Source of the DNA: Mycolicibacterium sp. HK-90
Lineage (GTDB): Bacteria; Actinomycetota; Actinomycetes; Mycobacteriales; Mycobacteriaceae
Assembly: GCF_030486405.1 (NCBI RefSeq)
Contig: NZ_CP129613.1
Coordinates: forward strand, 5,270,001 to 5,334,000
DNA length: 64,000 nt
Direction of reading: 5' to 3'
Shown: in pieces, positions 38,379-48,476 of the stretch
Position numbering within the stretch: position 1 is the stretch's first letter
How the letters are laid out: each line of letters begins with the position of its first letter
The notes under the pieces: generated by a model
Database searches by the model: none
Seen by the model: only the letters and a program-made list of their open reading frames with translations
Told to the model about the DNA's origin: nothing
Translations under genes and position numbers: made by a program

Positions 38379-39110
38379 ATGAATCTGCGATTGACCGGTT
38401 CGGGCAGCAAGAGCGCAGCTCTCGCCGCGCCGGGCACCTCGGCGAGCGGACTCGACGAGCACATGGAGGCCTCGCGACTCGCCCAACGCCAGGCCGACAA
38501 GTGGCTGATCTCCGGGAGCCTGCTGATCGGCACCGCCGCCCTCGGCATCTTCGGCCTCCCACTGTTCCTGCGCGGGGTTTGGCTGCTACGCAAGGCCCAG
38601 CGGGACGGCCTGACCGTGCGCCCCATGCTGGTCACCCTGCTGGGCTACCTGGTCATCGTCGACGCCGCGATCAACACCGTCGGCTGGGCGCTGGACACTA
38701 TGGCCAGCCACACCATCCTGGCCCGAATCCTGTTGAACGGCTGGGGCAACATGTTCGACGCCGGCTACTTCTGGCACTACAACGAACTGTGGATCGGCGG
38801 CGCCGCAGGCCCGGGTGAGAAGGCCATGGAAGTCGGCATGATCCTCACGGTCTTCACCATGCGGATCGCCGCAGGCATCGGGTTCCTGCAGATGAAGCGC
38901 TGGGGCCACCAGTGGATGATCATCACCTGCTGGATGGGTGTGGTGATCTGGTGCATCTACGTCTTCAACATGACCATGTACGCCGATGTCCGGTTCGCCG
39001 GCGTGGTGCTACCGGTCGTCGGCTGGTGGCTCTACGACATCTTCTACATCACCCCGTTCCTGGCCATCCCCTACCTGCACTCGGTCAACCGTGAGATCTT
39101 CTCGGACTGA
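38379..39110 (+). CDS. Conserved multi-helix membrane protein, copy 1
   Basis: A 243-aa protein. After a soluble N-terminus ending EASRLAQRQADKW come about six helices (roughly 42-65, 82-103, 110-120, 143-165, 172-196, 200-225). A conserved loop [16 protein letters not shown] near residues 126-142 holds Asp, His and Glu, MKRWGHQW adds a His, and the C-terminus ends [10 protein letters not shown]. The His/Asp/Glu set in a hydrophobic setting could bind a metal. A near-duplicate lies at 42416, with about 15 differences over the last 122 residues by eye. It is the first gene of the TetR/VWA/AAA+ operon. I do not recognise the family; enzyme subunit or transporter are both possible. Confidence 0.72.
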   Translation: MNLRLTGSGSKSAALAAPGTSASGLDEHMEASRLAQRQADKWLISGSLLIGTAALGIFGLPLFLRGVWLLRKAQRDGLTVRPMLVTLLGYLVIVDAAINTVGWALDTMASHTILARILLNGWGNMFDAGYFWHYNELWIGGAAGPGEKAMEVGMILTVFTMRIAAGIGFLQMKRWGHQWMIITCWMGVVIWCIYVFNMTMYADVRFAGVVLPVVGWWLYDIFYITPFLAIPYLHSVNREIFSD

Positions 39111-39122
39111 GCGGCCTAAACC

Positions 39123-39731
39123 ATGTCGCCTCAGGTGAAACCGTCAGCCCGCGAACAGCGTCGGCTGCAGACGCGGGAACGCATACTCGGCGCCGCGATC
39201 GCCGAGTTCACGTCGTCGGGTATGGCCGGCACCGACGTCGGCGCCATCGTCACCGCGGCCGGGGTGGCCCACGGCACCTTCTTCTTCCACTTTCCCAGCA
39301 AGGAGCATGTGCTGCTGGAGCTGGAACAACGCGAAGAAGCCCGGATGGCAGCCGATTTCGCCCGCATCCTCGACGGTCCGCACGACCTGCCGACTGCACT
39401 GGCCCAGCTGGTCGAGTTGGTCACCGCACTGGAACAGCGATTCGGCCCGGTCCTGTTCAAGGAGCTTCTGGCGCTGCACTTCTCCCCGACCCGTCCGACC
39501 AAGGACGAGTGGACCGATCACCCCGTGATCGTGCTGCTGGTTCGCGAGATCGAAAGAGCCTGCGGCAACGGTGAAGTCCACCCCGAGGTCGACGCCTTCT
39601 ACAGCGCGACGTTCTTCCTGCTGGGACTCTACGGCGTGCTGACCACAACCGAACACGGCGAAGCACGAGACACGATGCTGGCCAAACTGGTGACAACCGC
39701 CCTTCGGGGACTGACCATAAAGGAGGTCTGA
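39123..39731 (+). CDS. TetR-family transcriptional regulator
   Basis: A 202-aa regulator. The N-terminal helix-turn-helix (about 14-60) reads RERILGAAIAEFTSSGMAGTDVGAIVTAAGVAHGTFFFHFPSK in outline (ending in the TFFFHFPSK recognition helix), and the C-terminal ligand domain is helical. It is the second gene of the operon, 12 nt after membrane protein copy 1, so it likely autoregulates through the 14-bp palindrome at 38360. Ends 1 nt before the 34-aa microprotein start. Confidence 0.9.
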   Translation: MSPQVKPSAREQRRLQTRERILGAAIAEFTSSGMAGTDVGAIVTAAGVAHGTFFFHFPSKEHVLLELEQREEARMAADFARILDGPHDLPTALAQLVELVTALEQRFGPVLFKELLALHFSPTRPTKDEWTDHPVIVLLVREIERACGNGEVHPEVDAFYSATFFLLGLYGVLTTTEHGEARDTMLAKLVTTALRGLTIKEV

Positions 39732-39732
39732 C

Positions 39733-39837
39733 ATGGATTGGGTCTGGGAGATCCTGCGCTACGTCGCAGCGTGGGGTGGAGCAGGTTTGGTGATCTGGTT
39801 CTGGTACTGGATGTTCTCCAACCTCGGGACGTTCTGA
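39733..39837 (+). CDS. 34-aa single-helix membrane microprotein
   Basis: ATG to TGA with a strong AAGGAGG Shine-Dalgarno inside the tetR end, 1 nt after its stop. The 34-residue product begins MDWVWEILRYVAAWGG, continues as one hydrophobic, Trp/Tyr/Phe-rich helix (about 8-28) and ends SNLGTF. Seven aromatic residues line the helix. It has no other ORF in its place and ends 6 nt before the VWA gene. Its place in a run of perfectly spaced genes supports translation. Perhaps a small subunit of a membrane complex with the duplicated membrane proteins. Confidence 0.7.
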   Translation: MDWVWEILRYVAAWGGAGLVIWFWYWMFSNLGTF

Positions 39838-39843
39838 ATCCCG

Positions 39844-41376
39844 ATGACCGAACTCTCCGATGCGCATGCCTTGGCGCTCGAGCGCAGTTGCGCGGTGACC
39901 GCCGTTGCCCTCAGTGGGCAGCGCCGCACCGGCGTCCGACTGGTCACCGGAGCCCACCGTGCCTTCGGCGTGAGTGCGACGCTCGACTACGTCCACGTCC
40001 CTTACCCACAGCTCGAACGCGATTGGGGTCGCCGAACCGTTACCTGCGGTGTGGCACTGCAATGTTCGCCATCCAAGGAGCGGCTCGCCCACTATCGGCT
40101 CAACGAACTCTCGGCTCGCGAGCTGCGGGCCCTGACCACCATCGAGGCCCGGGTCTCCCTCGGCTGGGTCGCGCAGAACTGGACCGGCCTGCTCGACGAG
40201 TTTCACAAGGTGGCACCAGAGCTGGAAGCATTACCGGCAACGCTGGAGGCCGACGAGATGTTGCGCCGCGCAGTCGAAGCGGCGCGTGACGGCGATGTTC
40301 CCCACGCCCACCCGATCGCGGGCCGGCTGCCACGGGGCTTCACCATACCGCACGGCTTGACCGACAAGCTGCGCCGCAGTTTCGGCAGAATGCCCTGGAC
40401 CTCAACGCAGAAGCGCCTGCCCCGACCGTATTCCATTCCGGTGGGCGGCGACGGCGGGGTACGCAACCCCAACCTGCCGCCGCCGAGCCGGCCGCAGGAC
40501 AACGACCTGGACATCACCCCCGAGCATCGGCAGGGCATCCCCTACCCCGAATGGAACTCGTGGACCCAGAGCTTCCTGCGCGATCACGTGGCGGTACTCG
40601 AGCGACAGCACCGCAGCGATACCCACCAACCGAACTCGGCGTCGGCCGAGCTGAGGAAGTGGTTCTCCGAGCACACCCACCGCGCCATGAAGAACCGCTT
40701 GGAGGACGGCTCCGATCTCGACGTCGAGCAGTACGTGAGCCATTACATCGACGTGACGACCGGGGAGGCTGTCGAGCCACGGATCTTCCGTGAGCTGCTA
40801 CCCAGCAGTCGCGATGTCACCACCGCACTGCTGCTCGACGGCAGTTCGTCGCTGGGTGTGCACGGTGGGCGAGTCTTCAAGTTGGAGTTGGCCTGTGCCG
40901 ATGCACTGTCACGGGCCATGACTGTGGCCAAGGAAAGGCACGGCATCTTCACCTTCACCGGAAATACCCGGCACCGCGTAGAAGTGAGCTGCCTCAAGGA
41001 CTTCGAGGACCGCCGCTTCGTGCCACCGAGTCTCCTCGGTCTTTCAACCGGTGGCTACACCAGGCTCGGCGCACCGCTGCGCCACCTCACCAGCCGGCTG
41101 TTGGCACAGCCGTCGGAACGGCGGCTGCTCATCGTGATCGGTGACGGGCTGATCTCCGACGAAGGCTACGAGGGGCGTTACGCCTGGGCGGACGCGGCTC
41201 ATGCGGTCGAGGAGGCCAACGAGGCCGGGGTCTCCGTCTACTACGTCGGCGTCGGTCCGGTGCGCGTCGACCCGCTGCCGGAGGTCTTCGGTGACCGCCG
41301 GTCCCAACGTATCCGCCGCGTCGAGGACCTGCCGCGGGTTCTCGCGCATGTCCACAGAGAGCTTGTCGCAGCATGA
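39844..41376 (+). CDS. VWA-domain protein of NorD/CoxE type
   Basis: A 510-aa protein. The N-terminal half is helical with the PYPEWN motif near residue 235, a hallmark of NorD-like proteins. The C-terminal VWA domain (about 325-505) has the MIDAS DGSSS at about 332-336, the Thr in TGGYTRLG and the Asp in VIGDGL. NorD/CoxE/CbbO proteins work with a MoxR-type AAA+ partner (encoded just downstream) to remodel or load metal into a target enzyme, such as nitric-oxide reductase, CO dehydrogenase or Rubisco. No such target is nearby, so a new client, probably a membrane protein of this operon, is likely. Confidence 0.82.
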   Translation: MTELSDAHALALERSCAVTAVALSGQRRTGVRLVTGAHRAFGVSATLDYVHVPYPQLERDWGRRTVTCGVALQCSPSKERLAHYRLNELSARELRALTTIEARVSLGWVAQNWTGLLDEFHKVAPELEALPATLEADEMLRRAVEAARDGDVPHAHPIAGRLPRGFTIPHGLTDKLRRSFGRMPWTSTQKRLPRPYSIPVGGDGGVRNPNLPPPSRPQDNDLDITPEHRQGIPYPEWNSWTQSFLRDHVAVLERQHRSDTHQPNSASAELRKWFSEHTHRAMKNRLEDGSDLDVEQYVSHYIDVTTGEAVEPRIFRELLPSSRDVTTALLLDGSSSLGVHGGRVFKLELACADALSRAMTVAKERHGIFTFTGNTRHRVEVSCLKDFEDRRFVPPSLLGLSTGGYTRLGAPLRHLTSRLLAQPSERRLLIVIGDGLISDEGYEGRYAWADAAHAVEEANEAGVSVYYVGVGPVRVDPLPEVFGDRRSQRIRRVEDLPRVLAHVHRELVAA

Positions 41377-41477
41377 CTTCGAGTGAGGAGCCGGAGGCGG
41401 ACCACAGCATGACTTCGAGTGAGGAGCCGGAGGCGGACCACAGCATGACTTCGAGTGAGGAGCCGGAGGCGGATCAC
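41371..41477 (+). repeat. Three tandem 36-nt repeats
   Basis: Units 41371-41406, 41407-41442 and 41443-41477. The first two are identical; the third differs at one base and is 1 nt short before the next ATG. Each unit holds an ATG and purine-rich GAGGAG/GGAGG, and a fourth partial copy is the MoxR start itself (GCATGACT). The period is a multiple of three and keeps a reading frame open. Confidence 0.9.
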
Positions 41478-41483
41478 GCATGA
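41373..41483 (+). CDS. 36-aa acidic triple-repeat peptide
   Basis: The 36-nt repeats encode an open frame with three copies of MTSSEEPEADHS (the last ends DHA). Its ATG overlaps the VWA stop (ATGA at 41373-41376) and its stop overlaps the ATG of the AAA+ gene (ATGA at 41480-41483), so it would fit a translational-coupling chain exactly. The peptide is strongly acidic with no helix or hydrophobic part; Asp-His and Glu residues could bind metal. It might instead be a non-functional expansion of the coupling region. Translation is inference from the perfect 4-nt overlaps at both ends. Confidence 0.5.
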   Translation: MTSSEEPEADHSMTSSEEPEADHSMTSSEEPEADHA

Positions 41484-42274
41484 CTACAGACACGTACTAC
41501 TCGAACGGCAGCGAGATCAAGCTGTTCGAGCGAGCCTGTGAACAACGACTGCCGGTGATGCTCACCGGCCCGACCGGATGCGGTAAGACCCGCCTGGTCG
41601 AGCACATGGGTGTGCTGTTGCGCAGACCCGTCGTCACCATCAGCTGCCACGACGACCTCACCAGTTCCGATCTGGTCGGGCGGTTCATGGTGACCGGAGG
41701 CGATGTGGTGTGGACCGACGGGCCACTCACCCGGGCGGTGAAGGCCGGCGCCATCTGCTATCTGGACGAAGTCGTCGAGGCCCGCCATGACTCGCTGGCC
41801 ATCCTGCATTCGTTGACCGATCACCGCCGGGTCCTCTACCTCGACCGGGCCGGCGAAGTGGTCGAGGCACCGGAGACCTTCATGCTGGTGTGTTCGTACA
41901 ACCCGGCCTACCGCAGCTCGCTCAAGGAGCTCAAACCCTCCTTCCGGCAACGCTTCGTCACCTTGCCGATGAACTACCTGCCGCCGGATCGCGAGGCCGA
42001 GGTGATCGTCGCCGAGGCGGGAGTCGAGTTGCCGACGGCCCAGCGGCTCGTCCAATGCGCGATGGCGATCCGCACCGCGGACGAGGCATTTCACTTCGAA
42101 CCGCCCTCGACCCGTGTCCTCGTCACCGCCGCACAGTTGATCGTCTCCGGCGCAACGGAACTGGAGGCGGCGGAAGCCTGCGTTCTGGCGCCGTTGTCCA
42201 CGGACGGGGCGATCAGCGACGGACTACGCGAAGTCGCGGTGGCGAGTTTGGCCTCCTCCGATAGCTCACTCTAG
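41480..42274 (+). CDS. MoxR-type AAA+ ATPase (CbbQ/NirQ/NorQ family)
   Basis: A 264-aa ATPase. Walker A GPTGCGKT (30-37), the family loop CHDDLTSSDLVGRF (about 57-70), Walker B ICYLDEV (about 93-99), sensor region CSYNPAYRSSLKELKPSFRQRF near 140-160, and the small lid domain at the C-terminus. The SSDLVGR and SYNP motifs are those of NorQ/CbbQ. It should form a hexamer that acts with the upstream VWA protein as a metal-cofactor insertion or activation machine. Followed by an 18-nt spacer with AAAGGAG and the 42-aa microprotein. Confidence 0.9.
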   Translation: MTTDTYYSNGSEIKLFERACEQRLPVMLTGPTGCGKTRLVEHMGVLLRRPVVTISCHDDLTSSDLVGRFMVTGGDVVWTDGPLTRAVKAGAICYLDEVVEARHDSLAILHSLTDHRRVLYLDRAGEVVEAPETFMLVCSYNPAYRSSLKELKPSFRQRFVTLPMNYLPPDREAEVIVAEAGVELPTAQRLVQCAMAIRTADEAFHFEPPSTRVLVTAAQLIVSGATELEAAEACVLAPLSTDGAISDGLREVAVASLASSDSSL

Positions 42275-42290
42275 AAAGGAGTCCACCCCG

Positions 42291-42419
42291 ATGGACGAAC
42301 AGGAACGAAAGCGCAAGCGAGCCCTCATCGTGCTGCAGATCGTCATCTACGGTTACTTGCTCGCGATGTTCGGAATCCAGCTCTACATGTCGTTCACCCG
42401 GGGCTGGTGGGAGCTGTGA
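42291..42419 (+). CDS. 42-aa single-helix membrane microprotein
   Basis: ATG behind AGAAAGGAG, stop TGA overlapping the GTG of the next gene (GTGA). The 42-residue product has a highly charged N-terminus (MDEQERKRKR), one helix (about 11-34) and ends FTRGWWEL. It has the same position relative to membrane protein copy 2 as a partner subunit would. Together with the 34-aa microprotein it makes two tiny Trp-ended membrane peptides in one operon. Confidence 0.72.
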   Translation: MDEQERKRKRALIVLQIVIYGYLLAMFGIQLYMSFTRGWWEL

Positions 42420-43105
42420 CAGCCGCCGACGTGACCACGGTCAGCCTCGAAGACCACCACGAGGAATCACGGCTGGCCCAGCGTCGGGCCGACAAATGGA
42501 TGATCGTCGGTGCCGCGTTGATGGGCATGTGGGCCCCCGGCTTGATCGGCTTTCCCATTTTCATGCGCGGCGTGTGGCTACAGCGCCAGGCTCAGCGGGC
42601 CGGGCTGTCGGTGCGTCCGATGATCGTCACGCTCATCGGGTATCTGGTGCTGATCGACGGGATGCTCAACAGTTTGGGCTGGGCACTGGATCTGGTGGCC
42701 AACCACACGCTGATCAACCGGGTACTCATGATCGGCTGGGGCCACATGTTCGATGCCGGCTACTTCTGGCACTACAACGAACTGTGGATCGGCGGCGCCG
42801 CGGGCCCGGGTGAGAAGTCGATGGTCTTCGGCATGATCCTCACGGTGTTCGCGATGCGCTGCGCCGCCGCGATCGGGTTCCTGCAGATGAAACGCTGGGG
42901 CCACCAATGGATGATCATCACCTGCTGGATGGGCGTCCTGATCTGGTGCCTCTACATCTTCAACATGACCATGTACGCCGACGTCCGCTACGCCGGAGTC
43001 ATCTTCCCCGTCATCGGGTGGTGGCTCTACGACATCTTCTACATCACCCCCTTCCTCGCCATCCCCTACCTGCACACCGTCAACCGCGAAATCTTCTCGG
43101 ACTGA
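42416..43105 (+). CDS. Conserved multi-helix membrane protein, copy 2
   Basis: A 229-aa paralogue of the protein at 38379. The first 25 residues differ, while [12 protein letters not shown] and everything after align without gaps; the Asp/His/Glu loop [16 protein letters not shown] and the C-terminus TVNREIFSD are conserved. The GTG at 42416 overlaps the 42-aa gene; an in-frame GTG at 42407 is possible. Long stretches are identical even at DNA level, so the duplication is recent or under strong constraint. Two copies in one operon suggest a hetero-oligomer. Confidence 0.72.
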
Positions 43106-43116
43106 AGGAGACAACT

Positions 43117-43530
43117 GTGACCACCACAGACGAAACCAAGGCCGAGGACCTACCGCCCGGCACAACGCCGTACTACGCCCGCATGCACAAATGGATCAAA
43201 CGGGCCGTGCTGGTGTGCCTGGTGGCCCTCGTCATCGAAGGTGCGTTCACCCTGCCGTTCATGGCGGTGTACTACGGCTATCCGACGCTGAGCCTCACCG
43301 AGATCTGCAGTGAGCTTCTCAAAGTCCGCTACTCGGACGATGCGCTGGAGTGCAAGGTCCCGTACCCGCCGCTCGGCCCGCCCGAAGGCGCCGAAGGCAA
43401 GGACACCGCCCAGGACGAATGGGGTATCCAGCCCGTGCCGAAGTATCACCGGCTCGGATTCCGCGAGCTGGTGCGCATCCACCAAGAGCGGGAAGCTCGC
43501 CAAGCCGCCCAACAACAGCCGAGCCCGTAG
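43117..43530 (+). CDS. One-helix membrane-anchored protein, unknown function
   Basis: A 137-aa protein (GTG start behind AAGGAG). A cytoplasmic N-terminus of about 25 residues ends in MHKWIKR, a single helix covers about 29-50, and an 85-residue hydrophilic tail follows with two Cys (EICSELL, ALECKVP) and a charged C-terminal helix ([15 protein letters not shown]). It lies 11 nt after membrane protein copy 2 and 8 nt before the first P450. It could be a subunit or scaffold of the proposed membrane complex. No family recognised. Confidence 0.65.
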
Positions 43531-43538
43531 GAGCCCCC

Positions 43539-44759
43539 GTGCCGGAGTCACTCGAACGCCACGCCGAGAACTGGGATCTGCGCCACCAGGATTTCAACGA
43601 CAACGACTTCCTCTACGATGTCTACTCGGTTATGCGACAGCAGTCACCGTTCGCCCGCACCGACAAACCATTCCTCAGCGCGACGCCGGCGGGCGCGTGG
43701 GTGGCGGTGCGCTACGCGGAGTGCGTCCAGATTCTGCAGGACTGGGAGCACTTCTCCAGCAACCCGACACCTGAGGGCGCCGAGCAGCTCGCCGGTGATC
43801 TGGTGATCACCCTCGACCCGCCACGTCAGCAGAAGTTCCGCAAGGTCCTGAACCCGTACTTCTCTCCAGCACGGATGAAGGCGCTGCGCCCCGAAATCGG
43901 CATCGAGACCGATCGGCTCATCGACGAATTCATCGAGTCCGGTCGCGGTGACCTCGCCCAGATCGCCTGGCGTCAACCAGGAATCGTGTTCTTCAAGTAT
44001 CTGCTCGGCATGCCGGTCGAAGACGTCCCGCTGTGCATCGAGCTGACCGACACCGCGCTCAACGGCGTCACCGAGCAGGACCGGATGGGCGCCTGGGGCG
44101 GGCTGTATCAGCACCTGCACGACGCCGTGACCGTTCGGATGGACCAGCCGCCCCGTGACGACATGATCGATGTCCTGCTCTCTGCCGAGATCGACGGGGA
44201 GAAACTGTCATTCGGCGATGTCGTTTCCAACGCCATGCTCCTGGTCCAGGCCGGCCTCGAGACGACTGCCAGCGCAATGTCTTTCGCCTATCACTACCTC
44301 GCCACCAACCCGGCCGAGCGGGACCGCCTGATCGGCGATCCCGAACTCCTCACCCGGGCGGTGGAGGAGTTCATCCGGTTCGCCGGGTCGATCCACGGCA
44401 TCCCCCGCACCGTCGCCAAAGAGGTGGAACTGAACGGGTGCACCTTCTCGCCGGGCGAGTCGGTCATCGTCAACTACGCCGCCGCCAACCGCGACGAACA
44501 GGTGTTCCCCGACGCGGACCGGTGCATCCTCGACCGCCGCGAGAACCGCCACCTCGGTTTCGGCGCCGGCGTACACCGCTGTCTCGGCTCCAACCTGGCT
44601 CGACTGGAATTCCAGGTGGGCCTGGAGCGGGTGCTGTCCCGAATGCCCGATTTCACCCTCGCAGCGGGAGAGCAGGCGAAGTTTCACGGCAACTCCGTCA
44701 CCCGCGGATTCCGCTCGGTCCCGGTTACTTTCACGCCCGGCGACCGGTCCACGACATGA
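43539..44759 (+). CDS. Cytochrome P450
   Basis: A 406-aa bacterial P450. I-helix AGLETTAS carries the acid-alcohol-type pair, the ExxR is in EEFIRF, and the heme loop FGAGVHRCLGSNLAR holds the cysteinate. GTG start 8 nt after the previous stop behind TAGGAG. Probably of a CYP family acting on terpenoid or steroid-like substrates, but this cannot be specified. Redox partners are not encoded here. Overlaps the DapB-like gene by 4 nt. Confidence 0.9.
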   Translation: MPESLERHAENWDLRHQDFNDNDFLYDVYSVMRQQSPFARTDKPFLSATPAGAWVAVRYAECVQILQDWEHFSSNPTPEGAEQLAGDLVITLDPPRQQKFRKVLNPYFSPARMKALRPEIGIETDRLIDEFIESGRGDLAQIAWRQPGIVFFKYLLGMPVEDVPLCIELTDTALNGVTEQDRMGAWGGLYQHLHDAVTVRMDQPPRDDMIDVLLSAEIDGEKLSFGDVVSNAMLLVQAGLETTASAMSFAYHYLATNPAERDRLIGDPELLTRAVEEFIRFAGSIHGIPRTVAKEVELNGCTFSPGESVIVNYAAANRDEQVFPDADRCILDRRENRHLGFGAGVHRCLGSNLARLEFQVGLERVLSRMPDFTLAAGEQAKFHGNSVTRGFRSVPVTFTPGDRSTT

Positions 44760-45805
44760 CCTACCGGGTCGTGCAGTGGACGACAGGCAACGTCGGCCGC
44801 AAGTCGGTCCACGCCATCGTCGCGAATGCCGAACTCGAGCTTGCCGGCTGCTACGCCTGGTCACCCGACAAGGTGGGAAAGGACGTCGGCGACCTCTGCG
44901 GCATCGAACCGCTGGGCGTGGCAGCCACCGACGACGCCGACGCGCTGCTGGCCCTGCAGCCGGACTGCGTCGTCTACAACCCGATGTTCGCCGACGTCGA
45001 CGTACTGGTCCGCATTCTCGGCGCCGGCATCAACGTCGTCACCACGTCCGAGTTCATCAACGGGCACGGCCTGGGCGAGGGTCGCGATCGTGTCATCGAC
45101 GCCTGTGAACGCGGCGGCTCAACCATTTTCGGCAGCGGCATCAACCCGGGCTTCATCCAGTTGTTCGCCGTTGTCACCGCAGGCATCTCTGATCGCGTCG
45201 ACCGGATCTCCATTCTGGAGTCGTTCGACACCACGATCTACAACTCGCCGGCCACCGAGATCCCGATGGGCTTCGGCTATCCCATCGACCACCCCGATCT
45301 GCCGGCGATCACCGAAAAGGGATCGGGCATCTTCCGAGAAGCGGTCCAGCTGGTTGCCGGCGCTCTCGGTGTCGAACTCGACGGTATCCGGTGCGACCCC
45401 AGCTATGCCCAGACCACCGAAGACCTGGATCTGCCCGGCGCCTGGACCATCTCCGCCGGCTGCGTCGCCGGCATCGACGTCCGGTGGATCGGCACGGCCG
45501 GCGGGCGCGATGTGATCGAGATCCGCGGCGTGTGGACCAAAGGCCAGTCGCTGGAACCGGCCTGGTCGACCACGTTCGGTTACACCGTCACCGTGGAGGG
45601 CAGGCCGACGATCAAGAGCACCTTGAGCTTTGAACCTCCCCCGGACTTCGTAGCCGAAACCATCGAGGACTTCATCATGCTCGGGCTGACGATCACCGCC
45701 ATGCCCGCAATCACCGCGATCCCCGCGGTGGTGGCCGCGCCCCCGGGCATCGCCACCTACAACGACCTGCCCCTACTACTGCCCCGAGGTGTACTCAATG
45801 TCTGA
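44756..45805 (+). CDS. DapB-fold NAD(P)H-dependent dehydrogenase-like protein
   Basis: A 349-aa protein starting MTYRVVQWTTGNVGRKSVHA, with an N-terminal Rossmann domain and GSGINPGFIQLFA near residue 130. Paralogous to the following gene and to 36270-37343. Members of this family include amine dehydrogenases, but many mycobacterial copies near P450s have no known substrate. It overlaps both neighbours (4 and 8 nt). Confidence 0.83.
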   Translation: MTYRVVQWTTGNVGRKSVHAIVANAELELAGCYAWSPDKVGKDVGDLCGIEPLGVAATDDADALLALQPDCVVYNPMFADVDVLVRILGAGINVVTTSEFINGHGLGEGRDRVIDACERGGSTIFGSGINPGFIQLFAVVTAGISDRVDRISILESFDTTIYNSPATEIPMGFGYPIDHPDLPAITEKGSGIFREAVQLVAGALGVELDGIRCDPSYAQTTEDLDLPGAWTISAGCVAGIDVRWIGTAGGRDVIEIRGVWTKGQSLEPAWSTTFGYTVTVEGRPTIKSTLSFEPPPDFVAETIEDFIMLGLTITAMPAITAIPAVVAAPPGIATYNDLPLLLPRGVLNV

Positions 45806-46856
45806 CAAGACCTACCGGATCATCCAGTGGATGACCGGGGACGTCGGCCAGGCCGGCGTGCGACACTTCGCCGAGAGCCCGGTGTTCGACCTCGTCGGAG
45901 TCCTGGTGCACAGCGAAGACAAGGTGGGCAAAGATGCCGGCGAGATCGCGGGTATCGCACCGATCGGTGTGACCGCCACCGACGACGTCGACGCCCTCGT
46001 CGCGCTCGACGCCGACTGCGTCTTCTACACGCCGATCATCATGGACGTCGACACCGTGTGCCGGCTGCTACGGTCAGGCAAAAACGTGGTGACCACGAGC
46101 GGGTTCTTCCATCCCTCACCGGATTTCCGCGAACCCGCCGAACAGATCCGGGCCGCCTGCCTCGACGGCGGGACGTCGTTCCACGGCGGTGGTATCCATC
46201 CCGGCTACGCCGGGGACATCCTGCCGCTGACCCTGGCCCGCGTGATGAGCCGGATCGACACCATCCAGGTGTACGAGGTCGTCGACGTACTGAAGGACGC
46301 CCCGATGGACCACATCGACTGGATGGGATTCGGCAAAGACAAGGACAAATTCCTCACCGAGCCAACGATTCTGGGTCTCGGCCTGCCGTTCTTCGCCCAG
46401 TCGATGCACATGATCGCCGACGGCCTGGGCGTGACCATCGACGAGGTGACCGCCGCCGAGGTCGAAGTCGCGACCGCCGCCGAGGACATCCCCCACGACG
46501 AGGGCGCGATACCGAAGGGCACCGTCGCCGCGCAACGCCACGAATGGACCGCGTGGGTGGACGGGCAGCCACTGATCGTCTTCCACGCGATCTATCTGAC
46601 CGCCGGCCCCGACAAACTCGACCCGGCATGGGATTGGGGCGAGACCCGGTACGAGATCGTGATCGAGGGCGACCCGCCCACCGAGCTGACCCTCAAAGGT
46701 GTCCGGCGGGCCGACGGCACCATGACCCATCCCGGCTACGACTGGACGGCCATGGGCGCCATCAACGCGATCCCCGATGTCTGCGATGCCCCGCCCGGCT
46801 GGCACAACCACCTCGACCTCGGGCTCATCCGGCCCCGTGGGCTCGTCCGCCGATGA
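45798..46856 (+). CDS. DapB-fold NAD(P)H-dependent dehydrogenase-like protein
   Basis: A 352-aa paralogue of the preceding protein, beginning SDKTYRIIQWMTGDVGQAGVRH. It has GGGIHPGYAGDILPL near residue 135 and the same C-terminal layout. The ATG at 45798 lies inside the end of the upstream gene (8-nt overlap). Two adjacent diverged copies could form a heteromer or act on successive intermediates. Confidence 0.83.
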   Translation: MSDKTYRIIQWMTGDVGQAGVRHFAESPVFDLVGVLVHSEDKVGKDAGEIAGIAPIGVTATDDVDALVALDADCVFYTPIIMDVDTVCRLLRSGKNVVTTSGFFHPSPDFREPAEQIRAACLDGGTSFHGGGIHPGYAGDILPLTLARVMSRIDTIQVYEVVDVLKDAPMDHIDWMGFGKDKDKFLTEPTILGLGLPFFAQSMHMIADGLGVTIDEVTAAEVEVATAAEDIPHDEGAIPKGTVAAQRHEWTAWVDGQPLIVFHAIYLTAGPDKLDPAWDWGETRYEIVIEGDPPTELTLKGVRRADGTMTHPGYDWTAMGAINAIPDVCDAPPGWHNHLDLGLIRPRGLVRR

Positions 46857-47266
46857 CCTCCCAACCGGCACTGCACCACGTCGTGTTCGCGGTCGCCGCG
46901 GAACGGACAGCCGACATGGTGCAGATGTTCACCGACCTCGGATTCACCTTCAACGCGGCCGAACTCACCGACCTAGGCGTCCACGTGCACCTGGACTGGG
47001 ACCGCGGCGTCGAGCTGATCAGCCCGTTGTCCGGCTCGACCGCATCGGTGGCGGCCTCTGTCAACGACTTCCTCGACCGCCACGGCGACGGTGTCTACAC
47101 CGTGGTGGTCCGTGTGCCCGACGCCGGGGCGGCTGAGGCCGTGACACAGCGGTACGGGTCGGTGACGCGGTTCCGTCAGGGATTCTCCGGTGACGGCTCC
47201 TACCTCGACGAGATCGACCTGTCCGCCCTGGGACTGCCCCTGACATTCCTGTCCACCAATGTGTAA
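46853..47266 (+). CDS. VOC-family (glyoxalase-fold) protein
   Basis: A 137-aa single VOC domain: ALHHVVFAVAAE at the N-terminus, a HVHLDWDRGVELISP strand set and a C-terminal DEIDLSALGLPLTFL. VOC proteins serve as lyases, epimerases or extradiol dioxygenases; metal ligands are not fully evident. It is coupled by ATGA to the DapB-like gene and overlapped 8 nt by the second P450. Confidence 0.78.
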   Translation: MTSQPALHHVVFAVAAERTADMVQMFTDLGFTFNAAELTDLGVHVHLDWDRGVELISPLSGSTASVAASVNDFLDRHGDGVYTVVVRVPDAGAAEAVTQRYGSVTRFRQGFSGDGSYLDEIDLSALGLPLTFLSTNV

Positions 47267-48476
47267 GCCGAGCGTTTTCGACGCGGGTTTGCCGACCCTC
47301 GACTACTCCGTCACCGACACCCCGCAGCAGATCTATTCGCAGTTCCGGGAGGCTCAGGAAGTCGCGCCGATCGCACTAGGCCCGATCGGGCCCGAAGTGC
47401 TGTCCTACGAGATGGCGCGCGCCGTACTGCGCGATCCGCGGTTCGGGATCCCCCAGGGCATACACCTGTCCGCCCATGGCATCACGTCAGGTCCGTTGTG
47501 GGACAGGGTGACCCGCAGCATCCTGAACATGGAAGGTGAAGAACACCGCCGGTTGCGCAGCCTGGTCGCCCGGGCGTTCACGCCGCGTGCCACCGCGCGC
47601 ATGCACGACGCGATCCACAGCGTCGTCAACGAACTGCTCGACGACATTCAAGACGCCGGCCGGTGCGAGTTCGTGGCGGACGTCGCGCGGCCGTATCCGA
47701 TTCCGATCATCTGCGCCCTTTTCGGCGCACCGCGCGAGGACTGGCAGCAGTTCTCCCGCTGGGCCGAGGACATCTTCAAAATCGTCAGCTTCGACTGCGA
47801 CCTCGCCCAGGAGGAGCCGGTCGTATTGAAAGCGTGGGACGAGTTCGACGATTACATCGACGACATGATCGCCCACCGGCGGCGGCACCTGACCGACGAC
47901 CTGCTGTCCGACCTGATCCGCATCGAAGTCGGCGGCGACCGGATGGACGCCGCCGAACTGCGAATGCTGGCGTTCTCCATCCTGATCGCCGGAACCGACA
48001 CCACCCGCAGCCAACTGGCGGCCTCGATGCAGGTGCTCTGCGACCACCCCGACCAGTGGGCTCTGTTGCGGGAGCAGCCCTCCCTGGCCATGCGTACGGT
48101 CGAGGAAACCATGCGGCATTCGCCGTCGATGTGCAGCACCGTGCGCAGCGTCGCCGATGACGCCGAGATCGGCGAATACAATTTTCCCGCAGGGACATTC
48201 ATCATCGTGAACACCTATGCGGCCAACCGCGATCAGTCCGTCTACGACGATCCGACCCGCTTCGACGTCACCCGCGAGGACCCGCCTCCGATCCTGACCT
48301 TCGGTGGCGGCGTACATTACTGCCTCGGCGCGAACCTGGCGCGGCTCGAGCTGTCCGAGGCACTCACGATCCTGTCTCGGCGGCTTCCGAACCCTCGAGT
48401 GGCCGGACCGGTTCCCTGGAAGCCACTACTCGGCCTGAGCGGCCCGACCAGCCTGCCGCTGGAGTTCGACCGATGA
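47259..48476 (+). CDS. Cytochrome P450
   Basis: A 405-aa P450 with I-helix AGTDTTRS, ExxR in EETMRH and heme loop FGGGVHYCLGANLAR. Distinct from the first P450 of the operon. The ATG at 47259 overlaps the VOC stop and its end overlaps the ERG2-like gene by 4 nt. Two P450s suggest consecutive oxidations of a lipophilic substrate. Confidence 0.9.
   Translation: MCKPSVFDAGLPTLDYSVTDTPQQIYSQFREAQEVAPIALGPIGPEVLSYEMARAVLRDPRFGIPQGIHLSAHGITSGPLWDRVTRSILNMEGEEHRRLRSLVARAFTPRATARMHDAIHSVVNELLDDIQDAGRCEFVADVARPYPIPIICALFGAPREDWQQFSRWAEDIFKIVSFDCDLAQEEPVVLKAWDEFDDYIDDMIAHRRRHLTDDLLSDLIRIEVGGDRMDAAELRMLAFSILIAGTDTTRSQLAASMQVLCDHPDQWALLREQPSLAMRTVEETMRHSPSMCSTVRSVADDAEIGEYNFPAGTFIIVNTYAANRDQSVYDDPTRFDVTREDPPPILTFGGGVHYCLGANLARLELSEALTILSRRLPNPRVAGPVPWKPLLGLSGPTSLPLEFDR

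Follow-up and report, generated by a model that had tools for sequence, protein, structure and literature searches.

NorQ/NorD-type machines, in which a MoxR-type AAA+ ATPase is paired with a protein carrying a von Willebrand factor A (VWA) domain, have a handful of known clients (the nitric oxide reductase cNOR, Rubisco, and CO dehydrogenase), and the related CbbQO remodels without inserting metal. Two reports describe NorQD as essential for insertion of the non-haem FeB into membrane-bound cNOR (PMC9976466, PMC13036017). They propose a twisting of NorD by NorQ, and binding of acidic surface residues of the client by the VWA metal site or a linker remodelled by it (PMC13036017, PMC9976466); an activase function of CbbQO is also discussed (PMC13036017). 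The analysis presented here concerns a pair of this type in a 64,000-nucleotide window of Mycolicibacterium sp. HK-90 (NZ_CP129613.1, positions 5,270,001 to 5,334,000; the genome is a single contig of 6.49 Mb), where it lies among two related polytopic membrane proteins (M1 and M2), three one-helix proteins (u1, u2, and T), and a TetR-family regulator. The reading favoured here, with somewhat better than even confidence, is an EXPERA-like membrane enzyme of several subunits that acts on a lipophilic substrate and has its own NorQD-type machine for maturation or activation.

A conserved gene set around a NorQ/NorD-type pair

The AAA+ protein matches PF07728 (AAA_5, E 1.4e-36) and PF08406 (CbbQ/NirQ/NorQ C-terminal domain, E 1.9e-20), both above cut-off, and its residues 6–255 of 264 match the solved NorQ structure 9qh4 (E 3.9e-77). 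The VWA protein matches PF00092 above cut-off and, over residues 222–510, the solved NorD structure 9qhd (E 3.1e-32), and by eye contains the metal ion-dependent adhesion site motif (DxSxS, T and D); no NorD match was reported for residues 1–221. These domain and structure matches bear out the NorQ/NorD type assigned to the pair in a first-pass annotation of the sequence, which had also stated that no known client is encoded. The latter statement agrees with the present search, in which no NorB-like protein, and no linked norB client of a nitric oxide reductase NorQ/NorD system, was seen in the genome, norC being outside the search. This genome has just two COX1-family matches, at 0.62 and 2.25 Mb (5.27 Mb for the window), whose frames of 586 and 582 aa are presumably ordinary ctaD genes for heme-copper oxidase subunit I. 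A further NorQ-like ATPase of the same genome (G000:C1:2414001-2432000, locus L208), 53% identical, overlaps a 565-aa open frame beside a gene resembling glucose-methanol-choline (GMC) oxidoreductases. A defence system was also considered and rejected, PADLOC on five proteins having given weak AAA matches only.

On the plus strand the genes run M1, TetR, u1, VWA, AAA+, u2, M2, T over 38379–43530. All of the genes named in the first-pass annotation (two polytopic and three one-helix proteins, VWA, AAA+) are present; the list omits the TetR gene within the block, and the two membrane proteins, described there as near-identical, are related at an identity of only 72%. A scan of named genomes confirmed 320 M2 relatives and the best 80 were kept, so that the sample represents the closest part of the family. 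The order M1-u1-VWA-AAA-u2-M2-T was read in 78/80 loci, and a seven-gene order so often repeated excludes chance. The exceptions are L126, where the upstream part is missing and the stretch begins 1.4 kb before M2 at contig base 1, and L127, where the VWA match is split in two pieces. Counted by gene, VWA, AAA, u2, M2, and T are present in all 80 loci, and M1 and u1 in 79. Flanking genes for P450, reductase, short-chain dehydrogenase/reductase, and glyoxalase-like proteins differ between loci, each being matched in 40 to 66 of the 80 (weak matches included), and the P450a match (E ≤ 1e-4, low identities included) lies near 66. Among these best 80 of 320, the locus of Mycolicibacterium senegalense is the most window-like throughout, at 92–100% per core protein. 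Loci L074 and L068, of M. vaccae and M. vanbaalenii, also carry the set. M1 and M2 each form one clade, with a support of 0.966 for the 65 distinct M1 sequences and of 0.859 for the 80 of M2. A module with a single M occurs in one further genus of this family and, within the class, in three genomes of a different family. The third M of the HK-90 genome likewise belongs to a complete second module, TetR-u1-VWA-AAA-u2-M-T, in which M is not duplicated (L015, G000:C1:557500-577400); by eye, the gene upstream of this module resembles a helix-turn-helix protein of insertion sequence elements.

Co-occurrence was examined in 158 genomes of the genus, with a requested completeness of at least 95%. Module-type ATPase, defined as a best hit of at least 76% identity read by eye from the table (G031 being matched by a fragment only), is present in 89 of the 91 genomes that have M and in none of the 67 that lack it; in the latter the best ATPase among the matches listed (E 3.8e-80, 51% identity) falls far below module type. 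The two exceptions are G1063, where the match covers no more than 66 residues of a distant M, and G990, which has the distant M type only. Six u1-u2-M-T loci lack the pair (L016, L017, L019, L020, L055, L056), and in each of these genomes the pair is found elsewhere. The contrast of 89/91 with 0/67 therefore makes M with u1, u2, and T the best candidate client, and the putative link of ATPase to client, judged from conservation, is well supported. The first-pass annotation had singled out the duplicated membrane protein as the best client and had called for this very comparison; its choice gains weight from the outcome, M with u1, u2, and T being the constant partner of the pair in mycobacterial loci. 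Across the class M occurs in 24/394 genomes and 5/137 genera, in a sample of the phylum in 9/396 genomes, and, for the class to which the most distant carrier belongs, in 1/199.

Distant M proteins, 31–37% identical to M2, come from four genomes in two other families (G071, G094, G126; G558), from a plasmid of Mycobacterium branderi, the one distant relative among the plasmids searched, and from G990, whose M is 85% like the plasmid copy. At L154 (G558, from another class) and L054 (G094), M, VWA, and AAA stand together with u1-, u2-, and T-like proteins. Proteins like u1, alone or fused to T, and proteins like u2 adjoin distant M; the u1-like and T-like helices are fused in one protein of 82–105 aa at L051, L053, L155, and L196, and a helix motif ending P-x(6)-G is common to seven aligned T-like sequences. 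At L052 and L053 the frame of an ATPase overlaps the end of M and encodes the AAA module and lid of FtsH with the protease domain absent; the L052 copy, which was the one searched, matches the FtsH-type profiles TIGR01241 (E 8.3e-107), PF00004, and PF17862. No ATPase was seen beside M at L051, L155, and L196. The expectation that the membrane family would not be found widely without the ATPase/VWA pair fails in part: G126, G071, and G990 have distant M and only other NorD-like proteins, 30–34% identical over the C-terminal part; on the ATPase side the genome-wide search covered G990, with a best match of 52% identity, and M of G071 adjoins an FtsH-type AAA ATPase. The pair itself thus goes tightly with the mycobacterial clade, and an AAA+ partner recurs that is neither always the same nor always adjacent. 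Viral contigs gave no match to M2 peptide patterns, and a viral fold library gave none to the M2 model at E ≤ 0.001.

Predicted fold and conserved residues of M

In VIA-align the AlphaFold2 model of M2 (predicted local distance difference test 73.2, predicted template modelling score 0.69) comes closest to EBP and the sigma-2 receptor, and both this model and that of a distant relative, which are not independent of each other, best match the EXPERA fold. With the EXPERA profile PF05241, 2 of 24 M members match at E ≤ 1, in the same register; both are distant members, the better reaching 19.4 bits against a cut-off of 25.7 bits, and the M proteins of the window give no match. More generally, none of the window's M1, M2, u1, u2, and T reaches a Pfam or NCBIfam cut-off, the few matches listed having E ≥ 0.07. 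An hhalign bridge through bacterial EXPERA proteins was tried and lends no support (36 and 48 columns, E 0.04 and 0.058, probability about 1%); the controls were slightly worse than the bridge, with 12 listed from 60 results, one reversed at E 0.15 and eleven block-shuffled at E 0.30–0.49. As a prediction, an EXPERA-like fold of the M core is moderately supported. The HK-90 genome also encodes an EXPERA protein above the Pfam cut-off (L162, G000:C1:499687-499962); the third M gene lies about 67 kb away.

Among the 24 aligned M proteins (M2 numbering; in alignments A1 and A2 the L050 row carries a few extra N-terminal letters), residues invariant throughout include R70, P71, D84, N88, W92, D116, E136, W174, W180, R194, W206, and P220, while 23 of the proteins conserve D95 and 23 have Asp or Asn at position 209. 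None of the His and Cys residues is invariant, and H122 is replaced by Asp or Asn in distant members. The conserved Asp/His/Glu metal site proposed in the first-pass annotation is therefore not supported as drawn. For EBP, E80 and D108 are reported as the catalytic acids, in an acid-base site (PMC4263179); the alignment of EBP with M is at chance level, and for this reason no residue map from EBP to M is claimed. M may have a carboxylate site or an EBP-like acid-base site, and a metal in the complex is possible. A copper monooxygenase was suggested by the letters WGH and NEL of M2, which resembled PmoC, and was discarded, that His varying even in M1 and the profiles being unmatched.

Upstream palindrome and layout of the locus

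The palindrome CTGACTATAGTCAG immediately upstream of M1 is the sole match in the window at up to two mismatches, compared with a mean of 0.03 in shuffles (one match in 3/100 shuffles). The pattern TGACTnnAGTCA is present in the 170 bp preceding the M1 match in 70/79 loci, a count over related loci whose events are not independent; 141 sites were found in 1.59 Mb, and the expectation from base composition is about 5e-5 per 170 bp. Most of the other sites listed (38/40) fall 650–790 bp before or after the M1 match. Fourteen of 15 other loci (second modules, other families, distant types) lack the palindrome, which indicates an element of the mycobacterial main locus and not of the whole family. 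A promoter-like match at this position is no better than chance (1 found, 0.8 expected). The palindrome may serve as an operator (TGACTATAGTCA) bound by the TetR regulator.

Features of the gene block, in window coordinates
Feature	Position	Strand	Basis
Candidate palindromic operator CTGACTATAGTCAG over -10-like TATAGT, immediately 5' of M1 start codon	38360..38373		pattern search of window
M1, polytopic membrane protein, predicted EXPERA-like core	38379..39110	+	fold carried over from models of M2 and a distant relative
TetR-family regulator	39123..39731	+	PF00440, E 1.5e-11
u1, one-helix protein, 34 aa	39733..39837	+	in 79/80 loci; no family match
NorD-type VWA protein	39844..41376	+	PF00092 above cut-off; NorD 9qhd match
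NorQ/CbbQ-type MoxR AAA+ ATPase	41480..42274	+	PF07728, PF08406, and NorQ 9qh4 matches
u2, one-helix protein, 42 aa	42291..42419	+	in 80/80 loci
M2, polytopic membrane protein, predicted EXPERA-like core	42407..43105	+	AlphaFold2 model, VIA-align matches
T, 137 aa, one helix and soluble tail with two Cys	43117..43530	+	in 80/80 loci

The likelier start of M2 is the GTG at 42416, overlapping the u2 stop, which is favoured over 42407. Between the VWA and AAA genes (41369–41485) a 36-bp unit is repeated 3.3 times; each unit has a stretch resembling a ribosome-binding site and an ATG, and the start region of the ATPase gene thus seems to have been tandemly duplicated. Downstream, at 43539–48476 and in the same direction as the module, lie genes for two P450s, two 2,4-diaminopentanoate dehydrogenase-like proteins, and a glyoxalase-like protein.

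Candidate mechanism, alternatives, and known systems

In the favoured reading, M1, M2, u1, u2, and T would assemble into one membrane complex, whose M core would bind and chemically change a sterol- or terpenoid-like lipophilic substrate within the membrane; such a substrate seems most likely because the predicted fold of the M core is that of EBP and the sigma-2 receptor. A NorQ-type ring docked on the NorD-type VWA protein would bind the cytosolic face of the complex and, by ATP-driven twisting, bring it into an active state, as proposed for NorQD on nitric oxide reductase, with insertion of a metal being optional. The TetR regulator, acting on the TGACTnnAGTCA operator, would control the gene set. 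Sterol-like chemistry had been suggested in the first-pass annotation from genes further along; the EXPERA fold match adds weight to the idea. The P450s and reductases further along are not constant neighbours.

A tentative alternative, clearly behind the EXPERA-like enzyme in probability, is a new membrane metalloenzyme that oxidises a lipophilic substrate and whose metal (iron, manganese, or copper) NorQD inserts into M1/M2. The role of NorQD in FeB insertion into cNOR speaks for it (PMC9976466, PMC13036017). Ligands could be the carboxylates D84, D95, D116, and E136, joined by His in the mycobacterial clade alone; D84, N88, D116, and E136 are present in 24/24 M proteins and D95 in 23/24, and the one-helix subunits and oxidative neighbours might suit a redox complex. 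The absence of an invariant His or Cys argues against such an enzyme, as does the metal independence of the nearest fold, EBP; to our knowledge, no known EXPERA enzyme needs a metal. That CbbQO, kin of NorQ/NorD, remodels without inserting metal also counts against it, and the FtsH-type ATPase beside M at L052 and L053 favours remodelling as such. Rather doubtful, and a little less probable again, is the fuller version in which an EXPERA-fold heterodimer with three one-helix subunits has gained a metal, bound by carboxylates and put in place by its own NorQD, and oxidises sterol-, hopanoid-, or terpenoid-like lipids. If true, this would be a categorically new membrane metalloenzyme and the first EXPERA-fold protein known to us to depend on an AAA+ activator.

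It is unlikely that the M complex is instead a transporter or channel for lipids or sterol-like compounds, loaded or gated by the ATPase pair and supplying the nearby P450s and dehydrogenases. The polytopic M with its three one-helix partners, the catabolic neighbours in many loci, and the cholesterol bound, according to its title, in the sigma-2 receptor structure 7mfi would all fit; however, no transporter family is matched above cut-off (the weak matches include MerC, E 0.13, from one distant member, and LptF_LptG, E 0.22), the neighbours vary while the core is constant, and known MoxR/VWA pairs mature enzymes and do not drive transport. Very improbable is a pair serving some other client, such as a P450, with the membrane genes as mere neighbours: although P450-like genes lie near most loci (66/80), the pair stands between u1 and u2 in 78/80 loci, coincides with M in 89/91 genomes, and is contiguous with M at L054 and L154, in another family and another class.

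Among the titles and abstract openings listed (up to 20 per search) in a literature search with most subscription journals outside its reach, none concerns the gene set, nor the operator as a regulatory site. The gene set, which many mycobacteria carry, is unstudied and suggests a lipid- or sterol-related enzyme not yet described, probably of EXPERA-type fold. If the favoured reading is true, a new class of client with a sterol-isomerase-like fold would widen the range of NorQ/NorD-type machines, and mycobacterial lipid metabolism would gain an unstudied enzyme, found in 91/158 sampled genomes of the genus. The FtsH-type ATPase beside the same kind of M makes it testable whether the client needs insertion of a metal or mechanical remodelling only.

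Three described systems can be compared with this locus. Copper membrane monooxygenases (PmoA/PmoC, AmoA/AmoC) also have polytopic membrane subunits with small helical partners; unlike them, the 24 M proteins give no corresponding Pfam match at E ≤ 1 and have no invariant His. M, which has conserved acids, may resemble the EXPERA superfamily (the sterol isomerase EBP, TMEM97/sigma-2 receptor, TM6SF) in its predicted helical bundle, whereas no member reaches the profile cut-off, 22/24 members lack a match at E ≤ 1, and M has extra N-terminal helices and is accompanied by an AAA+/VWA pair and one-helix subunits, for which we know of no precedent among EXPERA proteins. As in NorQ/NorD and CbbQ/CbbO, the AAA+ protein belongs, near full length, to the CbbQ/NirQ/NorQ family, its VWA partner has a NorD-like C-terminal half, and a candidate membrane client is encoded in the same operon. 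In contrast to NorQ/NorD, no NorB is seen and no NorD match is reported for residues 1–221 of the VWA protein; here three one-helix partners accompany the candidate client, a membrane protein of predicted EXPERA-like fold, and in one branch of its family an FtsH-type AAA replaces the pair.

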